From positions 7,832-28,535 of IMG/VR virus record IMGVR_UViG_3300030098_006138: a stretch of DNA of 20,704 nt, one strand, 5' to 3'. Position numbers and translations under genes: made by a program. Origin of the DNA: a virus. Shown here piece by piece: positions 1 to 20,704 of this stretch. How positions within the stretch are numbered: the first letter of the stretch is position 1; every line of letters starts with the position of its first letter. The notes under the pieces are model-generated. The model was not told the DNA's origin and made no database searches. It was given only the letters and a program-made list of their open reading frames with translations.

Positions 1-712
1 CTATAACATCAGCTTTTGCTACTAATGAAGATGCAAGTCCTCTTGGTAAATCAGGTGAAAGCTGTGCCTTACCATCAGTTACTGTTGTGGTCTTGCTATG
101 TGCATTTATAATTAGATTTCCAGCATACTTTTTCATAAGCTGTTGTAATCTAACCATTATATCCACATTCTTTTTTCTTGCTAAAGCCCAATCTGAGCCC
201 CAACTACCTTCTCCCATAGCATTGATACCTAATTCTCCTTGAACTATCTTCTCTATCCATTCATTAACGGCAGATATAGTATCAACTACAATAGTATCAT
301 ATGGAAGTTTGTCCCATTCTTTCCTTAACCAATTAAGGATTTCTACCATGGAATAGACAGGCATAGGTTTACCTTTATCTTGTCCTGTTCTACAATAGAA
401 TCCTCTTTCTTCAGGTGGAATAGGTACAGGAATGTCTTTTCCATTAACTTTTTTAGTTACAGGAACTTTCACTCCATCTTTTACTTCTGATTGAAAAGGA
501 ATGTTAATACTATTGCAATGAACTACATTAGCTTCATCACACCAATCAGTACCTGATTCCGTATCAATTATAAGTACTCCAGCAGTTCCTTTTTCTGACC
601 ATTTAGAAGCTGCTGTTGTTTTACCACTTTTGGGTTGTCCTACAAACATCCAAGTAACACCACTTGGCATTAGATTCCAATCCGTTTTTATATTTTGAAC
701 TTTTATGTCCAT
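1..712 (-). CDS. Sak4-like RecA-fold ATPase, C-terminus cut by window edge
   Basis: Open from an ATG at 712 to the left edge (237 codons, no stop), so the C-terminus is missing. The protein begins MDIKVQNIK and carries a Walker A motif GQPKSGKTT at about residues 25-33, followed by a strand ending in IIDTESG. A Walker B-like YDTIVVDT lies near residue 140, and a later LIINAHSKTT strand fits the polar sensor position. This is the arrangement of the AAA_24/Sak4 group of phage single-strand annealing ATPases. Known members promote annealing or strand exchange together with a phage SSB. The start has a good ribosome binding site (GAGGATAA just upstream). It is the last gene visible in the minus-strand cluster, downstream of an SSB-like gene, which supports a recombination role. 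The fold is confident; Sak4 rather than another small RecA-like ATPase is inferred from size, motifs and context. Confidence 0.8.
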   Translation of the reverse strand, partial: MDIKVQNIKTDWNLMPSGVTWMFVGQPKSGKTTAASKWSEKGTAGVLIIDTESGTDWCDEANVVHCNSINIPFQSEVKDGVKVPVTKKVNGKDIPVPIPPEERGFYCRTGQDKGKPMPVYSMVEILNWLRKEWDKLPYDTIVVDTISAVNEWIEKIVQGELGINAMGEGSWGSDWALARKKNVDIMVRLQQLMKKYAGNLIINAHSKTTTVTDGKAQLSPDLPRGLASSLVAKADVI

Positions 713-1736: not shown

Positions 1737-2018
1737 TTACTCAAAAGGTAACTTTTTAGGGTTTCCTTTTACATTATCTGAAAATAAATCTTCCAGAGCT
1801 CCTCCGTTATTTTGCTGAGGTGCAGATTCAGGCTTAGTTTCAACATCAAATGATAGAGATATTATTTGTCCACCATCTTTTTGTTTAATCCAACCTGCAA
1901 TATTCACCTCTTTGTTGTTTACAGTTGCTTTTCCTTTAAAAAATGGTTCATTATCTTTCTTTTTGAACTTATTTTTAGTTAAATAGCCTCTGCCTACAGT
2001 TTCATAATGAGATTTCAT
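1737..2018 (-). CDS. Small SSB-like/DUF736-like single-strand DNA-binding candidate, 93 aa
   Basis: The core (KNKFKKKDNEPFFKGKATVNNKEVNIAGWIK, then KDGGQIISLSF) matches the pattern of small phage beta-rich proteins with a compact 'G-x-hydrophobic / W-hydrophobic-K / G-x-hydrophobic-SL' layout (DUF736-like/OB-fold-like). The tail is disordered and Q/N/acid-rich, and ends LPFE, recalling the acidic tail and terminal PF of bacterial SSB proteins that recruit partners. The start at 2018 has a strong AGAGGAG site. It overlaps the E1-like gene by 17 bases, and a Sak4-like ATPase lies three genes downstream; SSB/annealase pairs are common in phages. ssDNA binding is inference from fold pattern, tail and context. 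Confidence 0.55.
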   Translation of the reverse strand: MKSHYETVGRGYLTKNKFKKKDNEPFFKGKATVNNKEVNIAGWIKQKDGGQIISLSFDVETKPESAPQQNNGGALEDLFSDNVKGNPKKLPFE

Positions 2019-2718
2019 TATGCTCCTCTTCTTTATTAATAGAGTTTTTTGGAGGTGCTACCATTTCTGAAACATTAGTTTCTCTTGGTAATAAAGTAGT
2101 GTTAATATAAGCATAATATATTGTTTCTTGCAACAATAAAAATGCCTGTGCAACACCATCAAAAGCAACTAATCCACCACAAAATATGGTGTGTTTTGCA
2201 GTACAGGGGTCGTCTGCTACATCACTACCATCATGCCAATGTTCCATATAGTTATCATAATACTTAGTAGCTGTAATGATTTCAAATCCTAATGCTGACA
2301 TTCTCATATCAATAAAGAACCCTCTATCATCATTTTGAACCCATTGATTATATGCATCCAGCCTTGATTCCATGTTATCTGTGCAAACCATTACATTTCT
2401 TAGTAATGGTGTTTTGCTATATGGGGTAAATTTCCGTGGTACTTTGCCGAAAAGTTGGTCTTTATCAGCATATCTAAACCATTCTTTTTCTGCAACATCC
2501 ACTTTATATTCACCTATTCCACTTTTTGGATAACAAGTAGTAGAGCGATTATGCTCTTCTATCTTATCATAATCAATTAATACAACATTCCTCCAACCCA
2601 TAATGGAAAGAGGGGCAATAAGGTGTGACCCTATGCCCCCTGCTCCTATTACTGTTAAATCAGTTAAATGATTTTGATTAATTAAGTCTTTATTCCTTAA
2701 AAATCTTGCTGATTCCAT
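2002..2718 (-). CDS. E1/ThiF-like ubiquitin-like protein adenylyltransferase, 238 aa
   Basis: This is the predicted activating enzyme of the cassette: family members adenylate the C-terminus of a ubiquitin-like protein with ATP and may pass it to a cysteine. The Rossmann nucleotide loop is TVIGAGGIGS (GxGGxGS at residues 25-31), followed by the acidic strand LIDYDKIEEHNRS with D49, D51, N57 and R58 in the family positions. K72 is a candidate ATP-contacting lysine, and CTDNMESR (112-119) matches the conserved TDN..R motif. C172 and C180 (PCTAKHTIFCGG) are candidate acceptor cysteines. The paired CxxC zinc motifs of MoeB/ThiF are absent. It is short, with no added Ubl or E2-binding domain. The start at 2718 has GGAGG upstream and shares one base (TAATG) with the JAB stop. 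The substrate is presumably the 83-aa Ubl encoded upstream. Confidence 0.88.
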   Translation of the reverse strand: MESARFLRNKDLINQNHLTDLTVIGAGGIGSHLIAPLSIMGWRNVVLIDYDKIEEHNRSTTCYPKSGIGEYKVDVAEKEWFRYADKDQLFGKVPRKFTPYSKTPLLRNVMVCTDNMESRLDAYNQWVQNDDRGFFIDMRMSALGFEIITATKYYDNYMEHWHDGSDVADDPCTAKHTIFCGGLVAFDGVAQAFLLLQETIYYAYINTTLLPRETNVSEMVAPPKNSINKEEEHNEISL

Positions 2719-3563
2719 TATACTATACCTCCAAACATTTGCATATTAAGAGACTCTTCTTGAGAATCTAATTTTTCAGATTCTTCATCAAACATTTCAT
2801 CGGTAATTTCACCTTTATTATGTTTAACATTTAAAGTTTCTCTCTTAGTTTCAATAATTTTCATCTCTTCATCGAACCTATCATCAATAGTTTTAGGTTG
2901 TTCATGAACAAATTGTTGAAGATTATTATCCCATTTACCAATATTTTGTACTTTATTGTTTGAATAATAACCTGTATTGAAAAATGTTTGTTGAGGTACT
3001 TTCTTTTTCTCTTTTTTAATAAAGTTTTCAACAAAAGTAAATGTTTGTTTTGCCCATTCATCTTTTGGAATATCAACTTTATCAATAGGATTCTCTCCAT
3101 CCATTATTTGAACATTACCATATTGGTCTTTATAAGATACAGCAAAAGCCCAAGGTTCATCACTATCAGCACATATAATAGATGGATAGAAGAAATCATT
3201 GGTTTTACCCATTTCCTCTAACAATTCAACATCTGTTTGAGAGAAGAAAGCTTTCATAGTATTATGGCTATGAATATTTCCTCTATACCATTTATTTGTA
3301 GCTGTTTCTGGAGCTATTTCCCATATTTTTTGTAAATCTTTAACTAAATCTTCTTCATCCCAATCTGTTTCTGATTTACTTCCAACATTTAAAACCCAAA
3401 AGAACTCTAAATTCCAATGACATGGAAATCCATTCTTATTTGTTTTATATGTAAACCATGCAGGTCCACTCCATTCCCTATTTCTAAGGTGTTTGTTGTT
3501 CAATAATGCTCTTATCAATTTCTTGCATTTCTGATTCACTGAAAATGTCATAGTGTTTTGCAT
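2718..3563 (-). CDS. JAB/JAMM-domain metalloprotease (Ubl-specific isopeptidase candidate), 281 aa
   Basis: The protein has a complete zinc-metalloprotease JAMM signature. H98-S-H100, seven residues, S108, two residues, D111 (sequence HSHNTMKAFFSQTD) follow an upstream catalytic Glu candidate, E30, in REWSGPAWF. In related operons these enzymes trim Ubl precursors or remove Ubl from targets. The JAB domain covers about residues 10-180. The remainder is charged and probably helical/coiled (DERFDEEMKIIETKRETLN), ending in MFGGIV. The ATG at 3563 overlaps the E2-like gene by 80 bases out of frame. Residues coded in the overlap (VNQKCKKLIRALLNN) look like the first helix of the JAB fold, so a later start is unlikely. 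AAGGA precedes the start. A protease partner supports a reversible tagging system. Confidence 0.9.
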   Translation of the reverse strand: MQNTMTFSVNQKCKKLIRALLNNKHLRNREWSGPAWFTYKTNKNGFPCHWNLEFFWVLNVGSKSETDWDEEDLVKDLQKIWEIAPETATNKWYRGNIHSHNTMKAFFSQTDVELLEEMGKTNDFFYPSIICADSDEPWAFAVSYKDQYGNVQIMDGENPIDKVDIPKDEWAKQTFTFVENFIKKEKKKVPQQTFFNTGYYSNNKVQNIGKWDNNLQQFVHEQPKTIDDRFDEEMKIIETKRETLNVKHNKGEITDEMFDEESEKLDSQEESLNMQMFGGIV

Positions 3564-5199
3564 CTTCTTTCATCCTTTCCATTGTTGTTCTAAAACTTGA
3601 TACCATAGAATTATATAAATCTCTTTTAAATAAAACTCTTAATCGCTTTACTTTATTTAGATAATCATCAAGCTTTTTTTCTTTACCATTTAAAGCTGTC
3701 TTTTTAATAGTGACATAACTATTAGGGTCAGGTAAATCTCTAAACCCTATATCTCCAAGTGCTCTTTTAGGGTGGAGACCATCTCCATTTTCAAACATTA
3801 CACAATTCATTATGTATTCATAACAATCATTAACATACTTAATAACTTTTAAAGACCTTTCTTTTTTAGTAAAGTAATGAACCATGTCACTTGGTATATA
3901 ATCAAAAACATCTTTCCATTTTTCTGTAACACTTCTCAATCCTAAATCAGTTTTATCATCAATTTCTTCAGATGGAATACCTATATTTAGTTGAAGAAGT
4001 TTACCTGCACTTACTAAATTGCAAAATTCAGGTGTAATATCTACATGTACATTAGTATGTATTCTTGAATCATAATAAATTCTATTATATCTTAACTCCT
4101 GATGTACATTTTCTTCTATTTCACAATATTCTCTAATCTTCATTTCTTTTTTCAGAAGATTTAAAGTGTCTTTTTGTTTTGTTTCTTCAAGATATTTTTT
4201 ATAATCAGATACATCATCAAAGTTATTTGCAGGATTTCCTAATCTGTGTTCAAGAGAGAGTATTATTAAATAAACAATAACAGAGCATTCATACATACCG
4301 AACCCTGCTTTTCTTGTCTTCTGAAGTACTTTTTCAAATATTTTTGCAGTATCTTTCCTAAATATATATTTAGTGTTACGATAGTCTCTGTTCCAATATC
4401 CATTTTCAAAGTCAGCTCTTTCCTTACCTTCAAATTCATAATTTGCTAATGTATTTCCATTTTCATCAGAATATGTAAATCTTCTACTAAGTATTCTAAT
4501 TGGGTCCCAGTAAGGAGAATTACCATTGAACTTTACTAAGAATGCTCTAAGAGCACCATATAATAAAAATATGTTACCATTTTTAATATATTCTTCAAAG
4601 TCATTTTTAAATCCACCTGCACAAGGATGAGCATCACTTGATATATGTGGATGATGTAATGGCACTAAACAAGGTTTACCAAAAACTGTTGCTTTTTCAT
4701 AAAAATGAAAATTACAATCATTTGTTACTATTATAACAGCATCTGATAGATGTATTCTTCCTAATGATTTAGGTGTAATGTGTATATTTTTAATATTTAT
4801 TCTTAAAAACAACTCATTGTCGTGATTTGTATAAATATCTCTAATACATAACTCTCTTATATCATCTTTAGTGATAAAGTCTAACTGATTCGAGTTATCT
4901 TCTAACATCATACCAATCTGTTCTCTTGCATTTTTAAAGCTCTGCAAAAGAAACTCTTCTTCATGAACATTTAATTCATCAGCTCTAATTTGAACATTGT
5001 AAGTTCTACGAATTATGTTACTAAAAGCTTTCAGAATCATCTTCTCTTTTATAGCTTCTCTTTCTTCAGAAAGCATGTTTTTTATTGAAGAAGCATGGAA
5101 ATATTGTCCATTCACTATCAGTTTGGTTCTATCATAAGTAAATTCTTCTGAAAAACCTTTTAATATGTCACCATATACAGCTTGTTCTACAGCTTCCAT
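3484..5199 (-). CDS. Large protein with prokaryotic E2-like (Ubl-conjugating) domain, 571 aa
   Basis: Predicted conjugating enzyme. In the 571-aa numbering a region at about residues 140-235 contains two hydrophobic strands (DAVIIVTND, NFHFYEKATVFGK). They are followed by HHPHIS at 182-187 and HPCAGG with Cys193, then a helix and SPYWDP. A His-Pro-His turn a few residues before a lone Cys-x-Gly, then a helix and a Pro-rich turn, is how bacterial E2-like proteins (including PRTRC protein B) place their catalytic cysteine. The N-terminal 130 residues and the C-terminal 330 are unassigned; the C-terminus looks mainly helical. The ATG at 5199 is preferred: the longer frame from 5289 would read through a 14-bp hairpin and add 30 atypical hydrophobic residues. 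AAAGGA lies 14 bases upstream, a long spacing. It follows the Ubl gene and overlaps the JAB gene by 80 bases. E2 assignment rests on motif and context. Confidence 0.75.
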   Translation of the reverse strand: MEAVEQAVYGDILKGFSEEFTYDRTKLIVNGQYFHASSIKNMLSEEREAIKEKMILKAFSNIIRRTYNVQIRADELNVHEEEFLLQSFKNAREQIGMMLEDNSNQLDFITKDDIRELCIRDIYTNHDNELFLRINIKNIHITPKSLGRIHLSDAVIIVTNDCNFHFYEKATVFGKPCLVPLHHPHISSDAHPCAGGFKNDFEEYIKNGNIFLLYGALRAFLVKFNGNSPYWDPIRILSRRFTYSDENGNTLANYEFEGKERADFENGYWNRDYRNTKYIFRKDTAKIFEKVLQKTRKAGFGMYECSVIVYLIILSLEHRLGNPANNFDDVSDYKKYLEETKQKDTLNLLKKEMKIREYCEIEENVHQELRYNRIYYDSRIHTNVHVDITPEFCNLVSAGKLLQLNIGIPSEEIDDKTDLGLRSVTEKWKDVFDYIPSDMVHYFTKKERSLKVIKYVNDCYEYIMNCVMFENGDGLHPKRALGDIGFRDLPDPNSYVTIKKTALNGKEKKLDDYLNKVKRLRVLFKRDLYNSMVSSFRTTMERMKEDAKHYDIFSESEMQEIDKSIIEQQTP

Positions 5200-5225
5200 A
5201 ATATTAATTAAATTCCTTTCAATAT

Positions 5226-5259
5226 AAGACAAGAGGGCTAATAAAAGCCCCCTTATCTT
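5226..5259 (-). other. 14-bp intercistronic hairpin between Ubl and E2-like genes
   Basis: On the minus-strand RNA, AAGATAAGGGGGCT (5259 to 5246) pairs with AGCCCTCTTGTCTT (5239 to 5226) in 14 continuous pairs, two of them G-U, around the 6-nt loop TTTATT. No U-run follows, so it is more likely a stability, attenuation or processing element than a simple terminator. It would allow the small Ubl to be made in excess over the large E2-like protein. That role is inference. Confidence 0.65.
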
Positions 5260-5278
5260 GGTTAAATAAAACAATAAA

Positions 5279-5530
5279 TTAAGAACCACTTTTATGTGAT
5301 GTCTTTGAGAAAACTACAACATCTCCGGATGATAAAGTATCCGTTATTCTTGCTTCTCTCATATCACCACCTTTTGAGGTTACTTTAATAGAATAACCAC
5401 TACCTACAGGTACATTCCATTCTTTAGCAATAGCATCAATTGTAGGATAATCTTTAAGATTTAAATCCTCAGGAGCTCCTCCATTTCTACCTTGAAATAT
5501 TGCTCTTACTACTTGTTTTCTTGCTGGCAT
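5279..5530 (-). CDS. Ubiquitin-like beta-grasp protein (prokaryotic Ubl), 83 aa
   Basis: Predicted modifier of the cassette. Length and pattern suit a single beta-grasp domain. A first strand VVRAIFQG is followed by a glycine-rich turn, a helix TIDAIAKEWNV, the strand YSIKVTSKGG, and the closing TDTLSSGDVVVFSK. The 'L-x-x-G-D-V-V-V' ending is typical of ThiS/MoaD-like and PRTRC-C-type proteins. The C-terminus is KTSHKSGS, without the terminal Gly-Gly of ubiquitin, so activation would be at Gly/Ser or after trimming by the JAB protease. It is the first gene of the four-gene cassette, starting two bases after the stop of the 67-aa gene. GAAAGGGCT lies upstream as a weak ribosome binding site. 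The Ubl assignment combines fold pattern with adjacent E2-, JAB- and E1-like genes. Confidence 0.75.
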   Translation of the reverse strand: MPARKQVVRAIFQGRNGGAPEDLNLKDYPTIDAIAKEWNVPVGSGYSIKVTSKGGDMREARITDTLSSGDVVVFSKTSHKSGS

Positions 5531-5734
5531 TTATAGCCCTTTCTTTTTTATTGTTGTGCTATTGATAGATTTATCTTTTTCAAGACTGAGATAATGTGCA
5601 TCAGCATCTTCTATATCTCTTGAGGTTACTTCTGCAGCAACCTCTCCATCAATAGCATTAGTTGTGTCATCAATTAAGTGATACTCATGTAACACTTCTT
5701 CATCATCAATGACTTTATCTGCAGAAATCTTCAT
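5531..5734 (-). CDS. Hypothetical acidic protein, 67 aa
   Basis: No family recognised. The body is strongly acidic (DDEEVLHEYHLIDD, then EVTSRDIEDADAH) and ends in a basic tail, TIKKKGL. It has no cysteine, membrane segment or known motif. Its start overlaps the preceding stop in the ATGA arrangement, and its stop abuts the Ubl start, so it is translated in series with the Ubl. An accessory factor or substrate of the Ubl system is possible from position alone. Confidence 0.65.
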   Translation of the reverse strand: MKISADKVIDDEEVLHEYHLIDDTTNAIDGEVAAEVTSRDIEDADAHYLSLEKDKSINSTTIKKKGL

Positions 5735-5946
5735 TGTAACTGTCTTTTTAAAGCCCTTTCATAGGCTCTTCTTAAGACTCTTCTCTGCCTTGCATTACCA
5801 ATAAACTTATCTTTATCGGAATGCTCTATCTTCATAATGTAATCAGATAGAAATGGAAGTAATACTTTATGCCTTAAAGTATCCAACATATTTAATATTC
5901 TTCCTGTACCTAACCATAGATACTGAATGATTTCACCTTTTTTCAT
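5731..5946 (-). CDS. Hypothetical basic protein, 71 aa
   Basis: No family recognised. It begins MKKGEIIQYLWLGTGRILNM and ends with a strongly basic helix (NARQRRVLRRAYERALKRQLQ), suggestive of nucleic-acid or acidic-partner binding. The ribosome site AAAGGGAAGA immediately precedes ATG 5946. The start overlaps the previous 46-aa gene by 14 bases and the stop overlaps the next start by four (ATGA). It is part of a tightly packed string of small early genes. Confidence 0.65.
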   Translation of the reverse strand: MKKGEIIQYLWLGTGRILNMLDTLRHKVLLPFLSDYIMKIEHSDKDKFIGNARQRRVLRRAYERALKRQLQ

Positions 5947-6073
5947 TCTTCCCTTTCTTTTTTTTTACACGATTACAGGGTGAACAATAACCATTACTGC
6001 TCTTATACAGAACATTATAGTAATTAGGACACCCTTTATTATTACACTTATAATGATATTCTTTTTTCATCAT
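5933..6073 (-). CDS. Zinc-ribbon micro-protein, 46 aa
   Basis: A short frame MMKKEYHYKCNNKGCPNYYN... with cysteines at 10, 15, 30 and 33 (CNNKGC, then CSPC), the spacing of a small zinc ribbon, and a lysine-rich tail (VKKKKGKNEKR). Start at 6073 (MM) or 6070; AAGGATA lies directly upstream, so the second ATG may be better spaced. It starts ten bases after the stop of the 53-aa gene and overlaps the next gene by 14 bases. Zinc binding is inferred from the cysteine pairs; the target (nucleic acid or protein) is unknown. Confidence 0.6.
   Translation of the reverse strand: MMKKEYHYKCNNKGCPNYYNVLYKSSNGYCSPCNRVKKKKGKNEKR
5997..6014. repeat. 18-nt repeat, copy 1 (inside the zinc-ribbon gene)
   Basis: CTGCTCTTATACAGAACA on the plus strand; it matches 17 of 18 bases of the sequence at 6439-6456. 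The copy is inside the coding region of the 46-aa protein and keeps a small TGTTC/GAGCA hairpin on the minus strand. Confidence 0.7.
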
Positions 6074-6082
6074 TATCCTTTT

Positions 6083-6244
6083 TTAACTTAAACTTTTCCT
6101 TTTTTTCTTTAATAAATGAGGGTTGTAATAAAAATAGTACAACTGTTTCTTAGTCATACTGTTAGCTTTGCTGAACTTGATATGATGATATTTAACTATC
6201 CACCATACAAGCTCATATCGGTATTTATAAGGACAGCTACTCAT
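6083..6244 (-). CDS. Hypothetical micro-protein, 53 aa
   Basis: The frame runs from ATG 6244 to TAA 6083. The protein starts MSSCPYKYRYELVWWIVKYH and contains SMTKKQLYYFYYNPH, followed by a basic tail KKKRKSLS. The 'S-M-T-K-K-Q-L-hydrophobic-x-hydrophobic-Y' segment resembles a helix seen in many tiny phage ORFs. It is rich in aromatic and basic residues with no predicted membrane segment. The ATG overlaps the upstream stop (ATGAGTAG) and both codons lie in the loop of a 7-bp hairpin, suggesting coupled translation. No function assigned. Confidence 0.6.
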   Translation of the reverse strand: MSSCPYKYRYELVWWIVKYHHIKFSKANSMTKKQLYYFYYNPHLLKKKRKSLS

Positions 6245-6255
6245 CGAACTGTCCT
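6230..6255 (-). promoter_or_regulatory. Hairpin presenting a stop/start overlap in its loop
   Basis: On the minus-strand RNA, AGGACAG (6255 to 6249) pairs with CTGTCCT (6236 to 6230), seven perfect pairs. The 12-nt loop contains the ATG of the 53-aa gene and the TAG of the 59-aa gene. This would favour termination-reinitiation between the two genes. The pairing is visible; the regulatory role is inferred. Confidence 0.55.
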
Positions 6256-6416
6256 AAAAAAGCTACTGAATACTGCCATATTAAGAATGGAATACTCAAT
6301 ATAAATCCTATAGACCATAGGTTACCAAAATTAGCTATTGATTGAATTAACAAATAGCTGAACATTGATGTAAATAACACCAATGAAATGATGTTTAATA
6401 GTATATTTCTTACCAT
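6237..6416 (-). CDS. Small two-span membrane protein, 59 aa
   Basis: From ATG 6416 to TAG 6237, with a GGAG ribosome site seven bases upstream. Two hydrophobic stretches are evident: residues about 5-25 (ILLNIISLVLFTSMFSYLLI) and about 34-54 (WSIGFILSIPFLIWQYSVAF), with a short NFGN turn between and a polar FDE end. It is therefore a likely inner-membrane hairpin protein. Its place in an early small-gene cluster fits a host-takeover or superinfection role, but nothing in the sequence proves this. Confidence 0.65.
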   Translation of the reverse strand: MVRNILLNIISLVLFTSMFSYLLIQSIANFGNLWSIGFILSIPFLIWQYSVAFLGQFDE

Positions 6417-6433
6417 TATTACTCCAAAATTAT

Positions 6434-6462
6434 AAGGACTGCTCTTATTCAGAACAGCCCTT
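6434..6462 (-). other. 11-bp intercistronic hairpin
   Basis: On the minus-strand RNA, AAGGGCTGTTC (6462 to 6452) pairs with GAGCAGTCCTT (6444 to 6434) in 11 continuous pairs, two of them wobbles, around the loop TGAATAA. It lies between the stop of the 71-aa gene (6475) and the ribosome site of the 59-aa gene. No U-run follows, so RNA processing or attenuation is more likely than strong termination. Confidence 0.6.
6439..6456. repeat. 18-nt repeat, copy 2 (intergenic hairpin core)
   Basis: CTGCTCTTATTCAGAACA on the plus strand, 17 of 18 identical to 5997-6014. This copy forms the loop and upper stem of the hairpin at 6434-6462. Confidence 0.7.
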
Positions 6463-6474
6463 AGTTGTTGTTAA

Positions 6475-6690
6475 TTAATATCTTTTAAATACAAAACCTT
6501 TATGTTTAATTCTTAAGTTTAACCACTTACTTGTAGTTAAACCCCAAGAATTGCATCTTGCAATGCTAATTGATTTATATTTAAAACCATTATCACTAAA
6601 ATCTCTATAATACTGTACTTTAAATAGATTAAATAAAGTAAAGAATATAGACTTGTCCATCATATCTTTCTTCAAGATTTTATCAAACAT
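6475..6690 (-). CDS. Hypothetical small basic protein, 71 aa
   Basis: Starts MFDKILKKDMMDKSIFF with a good AGGAG site upstream of 6690. Basic, with aromatic-rich segments (FFTLFNLFKVQYYRDF) and a C-terminal stretch TSKWLNLRIKHKGFVFKRY that looks like two antiparallel strands. No membrane segment long enough to be convincing and no known motif. It is the first gene after structured element B and probably the head of the small-gene run leading to the Ubl cassette. Confidence 0.6.
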   Translation of the reverse strand: MFDKILKKDMMDKSIFFTLFNLFKVQYYRDFSDNGFKYKSISIARCNSWGLTTSKWLNLRIKHKGFVFKRY

Positions 6691-6704
6691 TTTATAATAC
6701 TCCT

Positions 6705-6789
6705 AACAGCCCAAAGACAGATTACCCCTAAGATAGGGAGTTGTCCACTTAATGGCTTACTGCGTATTCTGCTACCACTTTGAGCTGTT
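6705..6789 (-). ncRNA. Structured RNA element B, three-way-junction-like leader
   Basis: On the minus-strand RNA, AACAGCTCAAAG (6789 to 6778) pairs with CTTTGGGCTGTT (6716 to 6705), 12 pairs with one wobble. Inside, GACA/TGTC encloses a TCCCTA/TAGGGG hairpin with the 3-nt loop TCT, and TGGT/GCCA closes a second side arm. The 3' arm ends just before the AGGAG of the 71-aa gene, so folding could control access to that site. It contains no ATG frame. It could be a regulatory leader, a processed small RNA or an antisense target; I do not recognise a known riboswitch class. Confidence 0.5.
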
Positions 6790-6802
6790 TATATTAAAGT
6801 TT

Positions 6803-18435: not shown

Positions 18436-19965
18436 ATGTTAGGATTAGGAAATACTCTTAGAAAGGCAAGCGGAGCCCTTTCCTCTTATGTTAGAGATGG
18501 TCTTAAACTCTATATGCCTTATAACTCTCCTAAAGAAGTCAAGTTTGTAGGACAAGGTAGTACATCTTTTGATGGCAGTGATGACTATATAGATTGTGGA
18601 ACAGACTCATCTTTAACTGTTGGTACTTCTGATTTTACAGCTTGTGCATGGGTAAAATTATCTTCTAAAGGAGGTAGTGATTATCATGATATAGTTGCAA
18701 GAGGTGATACTTTAAGTACTGGTAATGGTTGGGGTTTAAATTTTAATGAAACTAATAATGCTATATATTTTGATATAGGTAATACTTCATCAGACCATAG
18801 AGATAATATTACTTCTGGTAATAATGTATGGGAGTATAATAAATGGCATCATATAGCAGTTTCAAGAGTTAATAGCACTAATATGATGAATATGTATCTT
18901 GATGGTGTTCTTATTAAGTCATTAGCAAATAATGATATAGATGACATAGGAGATAGTAGCTCAAATTTTCGCATAGGAAGGTCTGATGACACAAGATATG
19001 CTAAGGGCAATATCAAAAATGTAGGTTTTTGGAAAAGAGCTTTATCTGCTACAGAAGTACAGAATGTAATGTATAAAACTTATGATAATTTATCAGGAAC
19101 TTTAAAGCAAGGGATGGAGTCTTGGTGGAGTTTAGATAATATAGCAGGATGGTTAGGAACAATTACTGCTATAGATTCTAATGGAACTAATCATGGCACC
19201 AATAGTGGTTCTACTCCAAACACTTCTCTCTATGGTGGAGTCACTCCACTTATTCCAAGAGGTGTAGATAATGCACCAACAGTACAAGCAGATGCTATAG
19301 GTACAGGGTATGCAAGTTTTATTGCTTCAGGTGATGATTATATAGATTGTGGAGATGCTGTATCAGGTATATCTGATTATCCTTTTACAGTAGCAGGATG
19401 GTTTAGAGCAGAATCAGTAGGTACAGATGGGTATTTATTCTCTATTAGTGATTTAAGTGAATCTGATGTATATTACGGAGTTTATGTTAGAAAAACTGCT
19501 GGTGAAGGTGAGTTAAGAATAGTTGCGAGAAATACTACAACTCAAGAAGTAGATACAGGTGTAGCTGATGAGTTTAATGATGATACTTGGCATCATTTTG
19601 CAGCAGTATATACAAATGCTACTGATATGAAACTTTATACAGATGGAATATATCGTGTTCAACAAACTACAAGTGTAACATTTAATAGTGGTACTGATTC
19701 TTTTGCTATAGGCATACGGAAAACAAGTGGTGGATTAGATAAAGAGTTTCAAGGAGATATAAAGAATGTAGGCATATGGTCTGGTGCTTTAACACAACCA
19801 CAGATACAATCTATAATGGAAAAGACTTATTCAGAACTTACATCAAGTGAAAAGACTAATCTTACAAGTTGGTGGGGATTGGATACAGAAACTGGTACAG
19901 ATGGACAGGCTGGAACAGGTGGGGTAAAAGATGAGCATGGCTCTAATCATGGGACTTTAAACTAA
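18436..19965 (+). CDS. Tandem LamG/concanavalin-like lectin protein, 509 aa
   Basis: Predicted adhesion or receptor-binding protein. Two LamG/Con A-like domains are visible, about residues 45-205 and 290-470. Each carries FDGSDDYIDCG or SGDDYIDCG, a strand ending in W (TACAWVKL, TVAGWFRA), KWHHIAVS or TWHHFAAVY, DGV or DGI (YLDGVLIKS, YTDGIYRVQ), and a final GNIKNVGFW or GDIKNVGIW. The shared KTYDNLSG/KTYSELTS plus SWWSLD/SWWGLD linkers show that the protein arose by internal duplication. The start at 18436 has no ribosome site and lies three bases after the upstream stop, implying coupled translation. The stop shares a base with the next gene. LamG modules bind glycans, so a role in host recognition is likely. 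Confidence 0.75.
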   Translation: MLGLGNTLRKASGALSSYVRDGLKLYMPYNSPKEVKFVGQGSTSFDGSDDYIDCGTDSSLTVGTSDFTACAWVKLSSKGGSDYHDIVARGDTLSTGNGWGLNFNETNNAIYFDIGNTSSDHRDNITSGNNVWEYNKWHHIAVSRVNSTNMMNMYLDGVLIKSLANNDIDDIGDSSSNFRIGRSDDTRYAKGNIKNVGFWKRALSATEVQNVMYKTYDNLSGTLKQGMESWWSLDNIAGWLGTITAIDSNGTNHGTNSGSTPNTSLYGGVTPLIPRGVDNAPTVQADAIGTGYASFIASGDDYIDCGDAVSGISDYPFTVAGWFRAESVGTDGYLFSISDLSESDVYYGVYVRKTAGEGELRIVARNTTTQEVDTGVADEFNDDTWHHFAAVYTNATDMKLYTDGIYRVQQTTSVTFNSGTDSFAIGIRKTSGGLDKEFQGDIKNVGIWSGALTQPQIQSIMEKTYSELTSSEKTNLTSWWGLDTETGTDGQAGTGGVKDEHGSNHGTLN

Positions 19966-20704
19966 TGGCTACTACAATAACAACATTAACAGAAAATTTT
20001 GCTGCTTCTCTACCTCAAAAGAAAGGCGACCCACCAAACTTAGGTACAGTTAAGTCAGGTAGAGCATTAGCTTTTGATGGAGTAGTAGATTATTTAGAAA
20101 CTCCTTCAATACATTCATTCGATGAAAAATCAAGTATAACTATAACTTGTTGGGTTTATATAAATTCAGCTCCAAGTGGTATAGCTTATTTAGTATCTTT
20201 GCCAGAAACAGTTATTGGTAGTAGAGGTGTTGATATACAAGTTGATGCAGATGAGATAATTTTTAGTATTTACACTCATAGCGATAGCAGTACTTCGGAT
20301 ATTAAATATACATTTAATACAGGAGTTTGGTATAGAGTAGTTCTTACTTATGATGGTACAGATTTAAAAGGCTATATAAATGGTAGCTTAGTAGGTGCTA
20401 ATTCTGTTACTGTAGGTTCAGGTATAAAGCATGCTTCTTCAAGTTTATATATAGGTCAATTTAGTTCATCTGCTGGCACGATATATTTAGATAGCAACCT
20501 TTCTGATGTCCAAGTATGGGATGCAGCTTGGACTTTAACAGATGTAACAAATGATTATACTCATCCAGAGATGTTAGCACATACTTTAAGTGGTACATCT
20601 TTAACAGAGTCTAATTTAAAGATTTGGTATCCAATGACTGAAGGTAATCCTGAAAGTCCTCAGACAACTATATTTGATGGTAGTCCTAAAGTGTTGGGTA
20701 GTGA
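19965..20704 (+). CDS. LamG-like lectin protein, partial, runs off right edge
   Basis: Starts by a TAATG overlap with the preceding lectin gene and remains open to the window end (246 codons). A third LamG-like domain is visible: VVDYLETPSIHSFDEKS, TITCWVYINS, GVWYRVVLTYDG, LKGYINGSLV and LYIGQFSS, then LSDVQVWDAAW. It is related in layout to the two domains upstream but lacks the paired HH after W (WYRV instead of WHH). It continues with LKIWYPMTEGN, similar in place to the SWWSLD linkers. It is probably another receptor-binding unit; the C-terminus is unknown. Confidence 0.7.
   Translation, partial: MATTITTLTENFAASLPQKKGDPPNLGTVKSGRALAFDGVVDYLETPSIHSFDEKSSITITCWVYINSAPSGIAYLVSLPETVIGSRGVDIQVDADEIIFSIYTHSDSSTSDIKYTFNTGVWYRVVLTYDGTDLKGYINGSLVGANSVTVGSGIKHASSSLYIGQFSSSAGTIYLDSNLSDVQVWDAAWTLTDVTNDYTHPEMLAHTLSGTSLTESNLKIWYPMTEGNPESPQTTIFDGSPKVLGS

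Follow-up and report, generated by a model that had tools for sequence, protein, structure and literature searches.

The 20,704-nucleotide stretch of viral DNA analyzed here (the window) encodes a small ubiquitin-like protein (Ubl) whose C terminus raises the question of how, if at all, it could be conjugated. It ends in KTSHKSGS and lacks the Gly-Gly (GG) typical of modifiers of the ubiquitin, SUMO, or NEDD8 kind, having Ser-Gly (SG) instead. A preliminary description of the locus had offered three answers, namely that the last serine is trimmed to leave SG, that a different residue is joined, or that the protein works without conjugation, and had named a JAB protease of the same operon as a possible trimming enzyme. 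Translation of the minus-strand open reading frame at positions 5279 to 5530 gave 83 amino acids with the C terminus ...VVVFSKTSHKSGS followed by a TAA stop codon, which bore out the described ending. The Ubl of a homologous locus, L001, is 82% identical, shares the last eight residues with the window protein, and lies in an identical gene order, while the last eight codons of the two genes differ only synonymously. Because L001 keeps the gene order and the C terminus with only synonymous changes there, the window reading frame is a real gene, and a sequencing or start-site artifact behind the SGS end could be discarded on the same grounds. Two small genes located 5′ of the Ubl (67 and 71 amino acids, positions 5531 to 5946) are also both present at L001 and had no confident family match.

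The assignment of the protein as a β-grasp modifier rests on the family alignment, an AlphaFold2 model, and profile matches. The model (mean pLDDT of 79) has β-grasp topology, with elements in the order strand-strand-helix-strand-strand, and residues 80 to 83 form a flexible tail with pLDDT below 50. All matches obtained with the model in Foldseek were Ubl-type folds with a probability near 1, yet with E values above 1e-3, and TtuB and MoaD were among them. When the family profile was compared with the PDB, the best interpretable matches were ThiS (2cu3, E = 1.5e-4) and SAMP2 (5lda, E = 2.3e-3).

On the minus strand of the window, the Ubl is the first gene of an operon and is followed by genes for an E2-like protein, a JAB protease, and a ThiF-type E1. 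The parent record is a 28.5-kb virus sequence with terminase and portal genes and thus belongs to a phage, whose terminase is about 27% identical to those of the best-matching annotated phages. Two consecutive genes at positions 18436 to 20702 carry what appear, from their translation only, to be repeated LamG/concanavalin-type domains and probably encode virion adhesins. Using an E1-based scan, tblastn in annotated phages, and JAB-based scans, we found the four-gene operon in well over 100 phage contigs, with the same gene order in marine phage contigs, crAss-like phages (Steigviridae), Flavobacterium phages, and others. The E1 alignment contained no stretch conserved enough for scanning, whereas the JAB motif was suitable; most scanned loci were gathered through JAB, so the frequency of JAB loss is not readable from this sample. 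With the E2-like protein as query, nothing was retrieved in the viral-contig scan or by tblastn in annotated phages. Because the Ubl sequence diverges fast, searches with it alone yielded a single relative among viral contigs and no convincing one among annotated phages. A JAB-profile scan that covered Bacteria and Archaea with one genome per species (84,980 species) hit two contigs only, each belonging to a metagenome-assembled genome. Thus, at the sensitivity of that scan, the system looks confined to viruses.

We then compared the C termini of the Ubls. The Gly that precedes the last residue of the window protein was present in every identified Ubl (about 117 distinct sequences), and the domain ended in SG in 109 of them (about 94%), in GG in 4, and in NG in 3. 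In an alignment of 31 Ubls, Met1 and Gly82 were the sole invariant residues and Ser81 was found in 30, while the next column was free. Among 45 distinct Ubls, 41 had SG and 4 had GG at the domain end, with tails of 0 to 205 amino acids: nothing followed the Gly in 5, a single residue followed in most, and the rest carried longer tails. The position after the Gly was occupied by K, S, L, R, C, V, A, I, Y, N, T, or no residue at all, which makes twelve states; the ending SGS was common to the window, L001, L004, and L089. On the crAss-like side, 71 Ubls, in which the motif was located by a pattern that demands S/N-G, ended in SG (68) or NG (3) and had tails of 1 to 217 amino acids that nearly always measured at least 53. 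A recount with open reading frames picked by position only found 72 of 74 with a Gly at this column; neither of the two exceptions was a Ubl, one being a tail-only reading frame (L098, cr106_1 genome) and the other a misassigned one (L151).

Because the Gly is invariant while the residues after it are free in both identity and length, SG appears to be the working end and Ser83 a tail. The possibility that Gly82 is kept for folding was rejected, since residues 80 to 83 are disordered in the model and the conservation is therefore not structural. Judged from these comparisons, SG in place of GG is the standard terminus of a large family of phage Ubls and not a deviation specific to the window. 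Gly82, which together with Ser81 is encoded at positions 5285 to 5290 (minus strand), is the predicted mature C terminus, and Ser83 (codon at 5282 to 5284, minus strand) is an unconserved, disposable one-residue tail that is probably clipped before use. The alignment of homologs proposed in the preliminary description as a check on the penultimate Gly was clearly positive, and it favors the first of the three answers, in which the last serine would be trimmed. Joining through a different residue is disfavored by the free position after the Gly, and function without conjugation by the strict conservation of the Gly and of the E1 and E2-like active sites.

Several loci provide natural experiments on the tail. 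In the Ubls of L036 and L051, a TAA codon directly follows SG, whereas L043 and L049, which are closely related to them, carry a Val codon there before a TAG stop. In cr106_1 (L011, positions 1677 to 2880), the Ubl reading frame terminates with ...KKIKSGKF and is directly followed by an HNH endonuclease gene, and the leftover tail forms its own open reading frame. These cases indicate that the tail can do without attachment to the Ubl. The crAss-like loci L010, L012, L015, L016, and L097 to L176 carry a conserved extension after the Ubl, typically ...YGKNFTQCSTADL..FI and about 55 to 217 amino acids long; a single full-length protein was compared with Pfam and matched no family. At L008 (positions 4522 to 6792), the Ubl precursor contains an internal KIKGG. 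The Xanthomonas jumbo phage PhiXhv-12 (L014, positions 2748 to 6624) encodes a 140-amino acid Ubl with a bare SGG end, together with an E1 and an 892-amino acid HPH...C protein with Cys-rich ends. Neither the Pfam Prok-JAB model nor the family profile detected a JAB in its 227-kb genome, and the same family profile found JAB at once in three other phages. The bare SGG without JAB comes from one lineage and is only suggestive of trimming by JAB; a search for further relatives of the jumbo-phage type to widen this comparison found none.

The JAB/JAMM metalloprotease of the window (281 amino acids, positions 2718 to 3563, minus strand) was assigned by Pfam, alignment, and motif count. Its match to Pfam Prok-JAB (E = 1.7e-4, 21.9 bits) lies just under the 25-bit gathering cutoff. 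The JAB alignment placed the JAMM motif H98-S-H100-x7-S108-x2-D111 at positions 3231 to 3272 (minus strand), and E30, H98, H100, S108, and D111 were invariant; H98 had thus been named correctly in the preliminary description. The motif H-S/T-H-x7-S-x2-D was complete in the JABs of 173 of the 177 loci, and all but one of the examined lineages had a JAB with the full motif. JAB is the obvious candidate enzyme for trimming Ser83, as had been suggested, and the complete motif supports this part of the suggestion. Trimming cannot, however, be its sole job, since an intact JAB persists in phages with a Ubl that already stops at SG: the motif was retained at all four tail-less loci that we checked (L036, L047, L051, and L069). 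By the same token, the presence of JAB alone is no proof of trimming. JAB probably acts as a deconjugating enzyme too.

The ThiF/E1-type Ubl-activating enzyme (238 amino acids, positions 2002 to 2718, minus strand) was recognized by Pfam (ThiF, PF00899, E = 2.4e-12), alignment, and PDB profile matches, and it contains GAGGIGS, D49-x-D51, and a candidate catalytic C172 within PCTAK. Conserved in the family are GxGG(I/V)G, D49-x-D51, K72, D114, and C172, of which GxG, D-x-D, and C172 are invariant; in the window group, C172 lies in the context P-C-T-x-K. The best PDB match of the E1 profile was UBA5 (E = 6e-18), followed by MccB, Uba1, and ThiF, and the adenylation domain of Cap2 also matched (7tsq, E = 1.5e-9).

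The gene between the Ubl and JAB encodes an E2-like protein of 571 amino acids when read from its ATG (positions 3484 to 5199, minus strand); the listed open reading frame starts at an upstream GTG, overlaps the Ubl gene, and comprises 601 amino acids. The protein carries the motif H183-P-H185...C193-x-G195 (H213-P-H215 and C223 in the longer version), and the codon of Cys193, the predicted E2 thioester cysteine, occupies positions 4621 to 4623 (minus strand). In an alignment of 51 sequences, the H, P/S, H, C, and G of the motif are near-invariant, with the His pair and the Cys kept in 50. The window protein thus has HPH-x7-C and not the classical HPN; a true HPN...C occurs only in the relative L009, which also matched Pfam UQ_con weakly (E = 0.014). 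The sole PDB matches of the core profile were three E2 chains, aligned at HPN...C with E of about 1. The AlphaFold2 model of the full-length protein was poor (pLDDT of 60) and gave no significant match in Foldseek, where an RWD domain stood fourth in the list with a probability of 0.16. We therefore call the protein E2-like, a name suggested by the motif, the position in the operon, the weak UQ_con match of L009, and the PDB matches at E of about 1, with the structure model adding no confirmation. The E2-like protein of L008 seems to be without the otherwise near-invariant Cys and His and may be inactive or misaligned.

The surroundings of the core genes are also recurrent. The gap between the Ubl and E2-like genes (positions 5200 to 5278) contains a strong stem-loop at positions 5226 to 5259 (minus strand; folding z of -4.4 for the gap), and the corresponding gap folds at z ≤ -3 in 25 of 41 loci. 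In L008, L012, L013, and L031, the stem-loops look like intrinsic terminators. The element is a candidate attenuator or processing site, which may keep the Ubl in excess over the enzymes. A survey of neighbors identified an SSB-like protein directly downstream of the E1 and outside the core operon (positions 1737 to 2018, minus strand), as well as a Sak4-like recombinase/ATPase that is open at the window end (positions 2 to 712, minus strand). The latter is a recurrent neighbor, since a Sak4-like ATPase gene starts at or near the E1 end in most marine loci (L018 to L096), with 63 of the 78 loci having more than 2.5 kb beyond E1 showing it, and it is often accompanied by an SSB-like or annealing-type gene. 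Neighbors of the crAss-like operons include uracil-DNA glycosylase, nucleases, and primase. Together, these genes point to the stage of DNA replication and recombination. No rhodanese or other sulfurtransferase and no CD-NTase were recognized among the operon genes, and PADLOC models gave generic E1-E2 and JAB matches only, plus a weak BilD match for a crAss-like E1.

We consider it probable that the operon of the window specifies a ubiquitin-like conjugation system of the phage with a Ser-Gly modifier, which runs through precursor, trimming, activation, transfer, conjugation, and deconjugation and has Gly82 as its reactive residue. The computed support for it consists of the operon, the Ubl, JAB, and E1 folds, the conservation of the active sites, the invariant Gly, the near-invariant Ser, and the free tail. 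In such a system, the 83-residue Ubl would be made as a precursor with Ser83 as a one-residue tail, and JAB would remove Ser83 to expose Gly82. The ThiF-type E1 would adenylate Gly82 and then form a thioester, probably on C172, as its conservation suggests. The E2-like HPH...C protein could subsequently carry the Ubl on C193 and join Gly82 to an amino group of the target, for example that of a lysine, and the same JAB may later cleave the Ubl from the target. A bolder proposal, possible but rather doubtful in our estimation, is that this is a complete pathway confined to viruses, with an SG modifier and, in crAss-like phages, a second, conserved domain in the precursor, and that it modifies recombination and replication proteins of the phage or the host. 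The Sak4-like recombinase and the SSB encoded next to the operon would then be among the candidate targets during infection.

Other readings of the locus have to be weighed against conjugation through Gly82. The Ubl could be a sulfur carrier similar to ThiS, MoaD, or TtuB, with JAB only maturing the precursor and the E1 and a sulfur donor producing a thiocarboxylate at Gly82, from which sulfur passes to a nucleotide, a tRNA, or a small molecule. The profile matches to ThiS and SAMP2 and the structural matches to TtuB and MoaD would agree with this, as would a ThiF-type E1 with one conserved Cys; JAB and ThiS/MoaD-like proteins also occur together in known sulfur-carrier operons (PMC1779556). 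However, the neighboring gene always encodes an E2-like protein whose Cys is near-invariant, the operon contains no recognized sulfurtransferase, and UBA5, the E1 of a protein modifier, ranks ahead of ThiF. On balance, we hold a sulfur carrier to be unlikely. It is distinctly unlikely, in our view, that the mature end is indeed SG but a host protease takes off the tail and JAB is a deconjugase only. Although the retention of intact JAB where the tail is absent would suit such a division of labor, the PhiXhv-12 lineage combines a bare SGG with no JAB found, and long tails are always found alongside JAB, albeit in a sample itself gathered through JAB. Moreover, trimming of the modifier in the Bil system of bacteria is the work of the JAB enzyme (PMC11354881).

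The two remaining readings dispense with trimming. That Ser83, or whichever residue follows the Gly, is itself joined is barely credible: four Ubls including that of the window do share the SGS end, but no chemistry can hang on a position with twelve states, one of which is absence. Some Ubl domains work non-covalently, and a non-covalent adaptor that is neither cleaved nor conjugated, with SG as a binding motif, would readily tolerate the very different tail lengths. Such an adaptor is nevertheless very improbable, given the strict conservation of a Gly exactly where the disordered tail ends, beside E1 and E2-like genes with conserved active sites, and a binding motif would leave the joint retention of E1, E2, and JAB unexplained.

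If conjugation through Gly82 is correct, hundreds of phages, including relatives of the crAss-like gut phages, would run a private ubiquitin-like system, and the end of its modifier (SG, at times followed by a long domain that is cut off) would be readable straight from the sequence. Because the residue before SG is Lys both in the window protein and in many of its relatives, modified proteins would carry a Ser-Gly remnant after trypsin (+144.05 Da on lysine), and existing phage-infection proteomes would become searchable for targets of viral Ubls.

Operons combining Ubl, E1, E2, and JAB are an already known kind. In the literature outside subscription papers and preprints, we found nothing on a phage-borne four-gene SG version with a long cut-off domain in one branch. 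Iyer, Burroughs and Aravind predicted prokaryotic operons of this composition in 2006 (types 6a to 6e; PMC1779556), and the passages of their article that we consulted describe a conserved C-terminal Gly in the type 6d Ubl and propose that JAB releases a phage Ubl, the lambda-type TAPI (TAPI/TAPK), at its last Gly. As described there, types 6a to 6e come from bacteria and have other E2 motifs and fusions, whereas the present operon is phage-borne, and TAPI, a tail-assembly gene, lacks the E1 and E2 partners that lie beside the phage Ubl. Those passages contain no phage operon of separate Ubl, E2, JAB, and E1 genes with an SG terminus.

Type II CBASS resembles the phage operon in having prokaryotic E1, E2, and JAB activities (Cap2/Cap3). 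Cap2, however, is a fused E1-E2, whereas the phage E1 and E2-like proteins are encoded by separate genes with JAB between them, and it acts on the C terminus of a cGAS-like enzyme without a separate Ubl, which the phage operon has. BilABCD, an ISG15-like conjugation system of bacteria, likewise unites Ubl, E2, JAB, and E1 in one operon, and the reactive Gly of its modifier BilA becomes exposed through trimming by the JAB, BilC (PMC11354881). Two Ubl domains make up BilA as compared to one in the phage Ubl, BilB has a CEHH motif in place of HPH...C, and BilD consists of an inactive and an active adenylation domain, while the phage E1 is a single adenylation domain of 238 amino acids. Furthermore, BilABCD defends bacteria against phage, whereas the present operon is carried by phages.

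The eukaryotic modifier UFM1 has a single C-terminal Gly, which is exposed only once a Ser-Cys tail has been taken off (PMC10952357). The phage Ubl similarly has one C-terminal Gly, and not GG, behind a short tail that is predicted to be removed, with Ser before the Gly where UFM1 has Val (VG). The UFM1 system uses the UFSP proteases, which are cysteine proteases, whereas the candidate in the phage operon is a JAB metalloprotease; UFC1 and UFL1 are without recognized counterparts in the phage operon, which has the HPH...C protein. The likeness extends to activation, as UBA5, the small single-domain-type E1 of UFM1, ranks first among the PDB matches of the phage E1.
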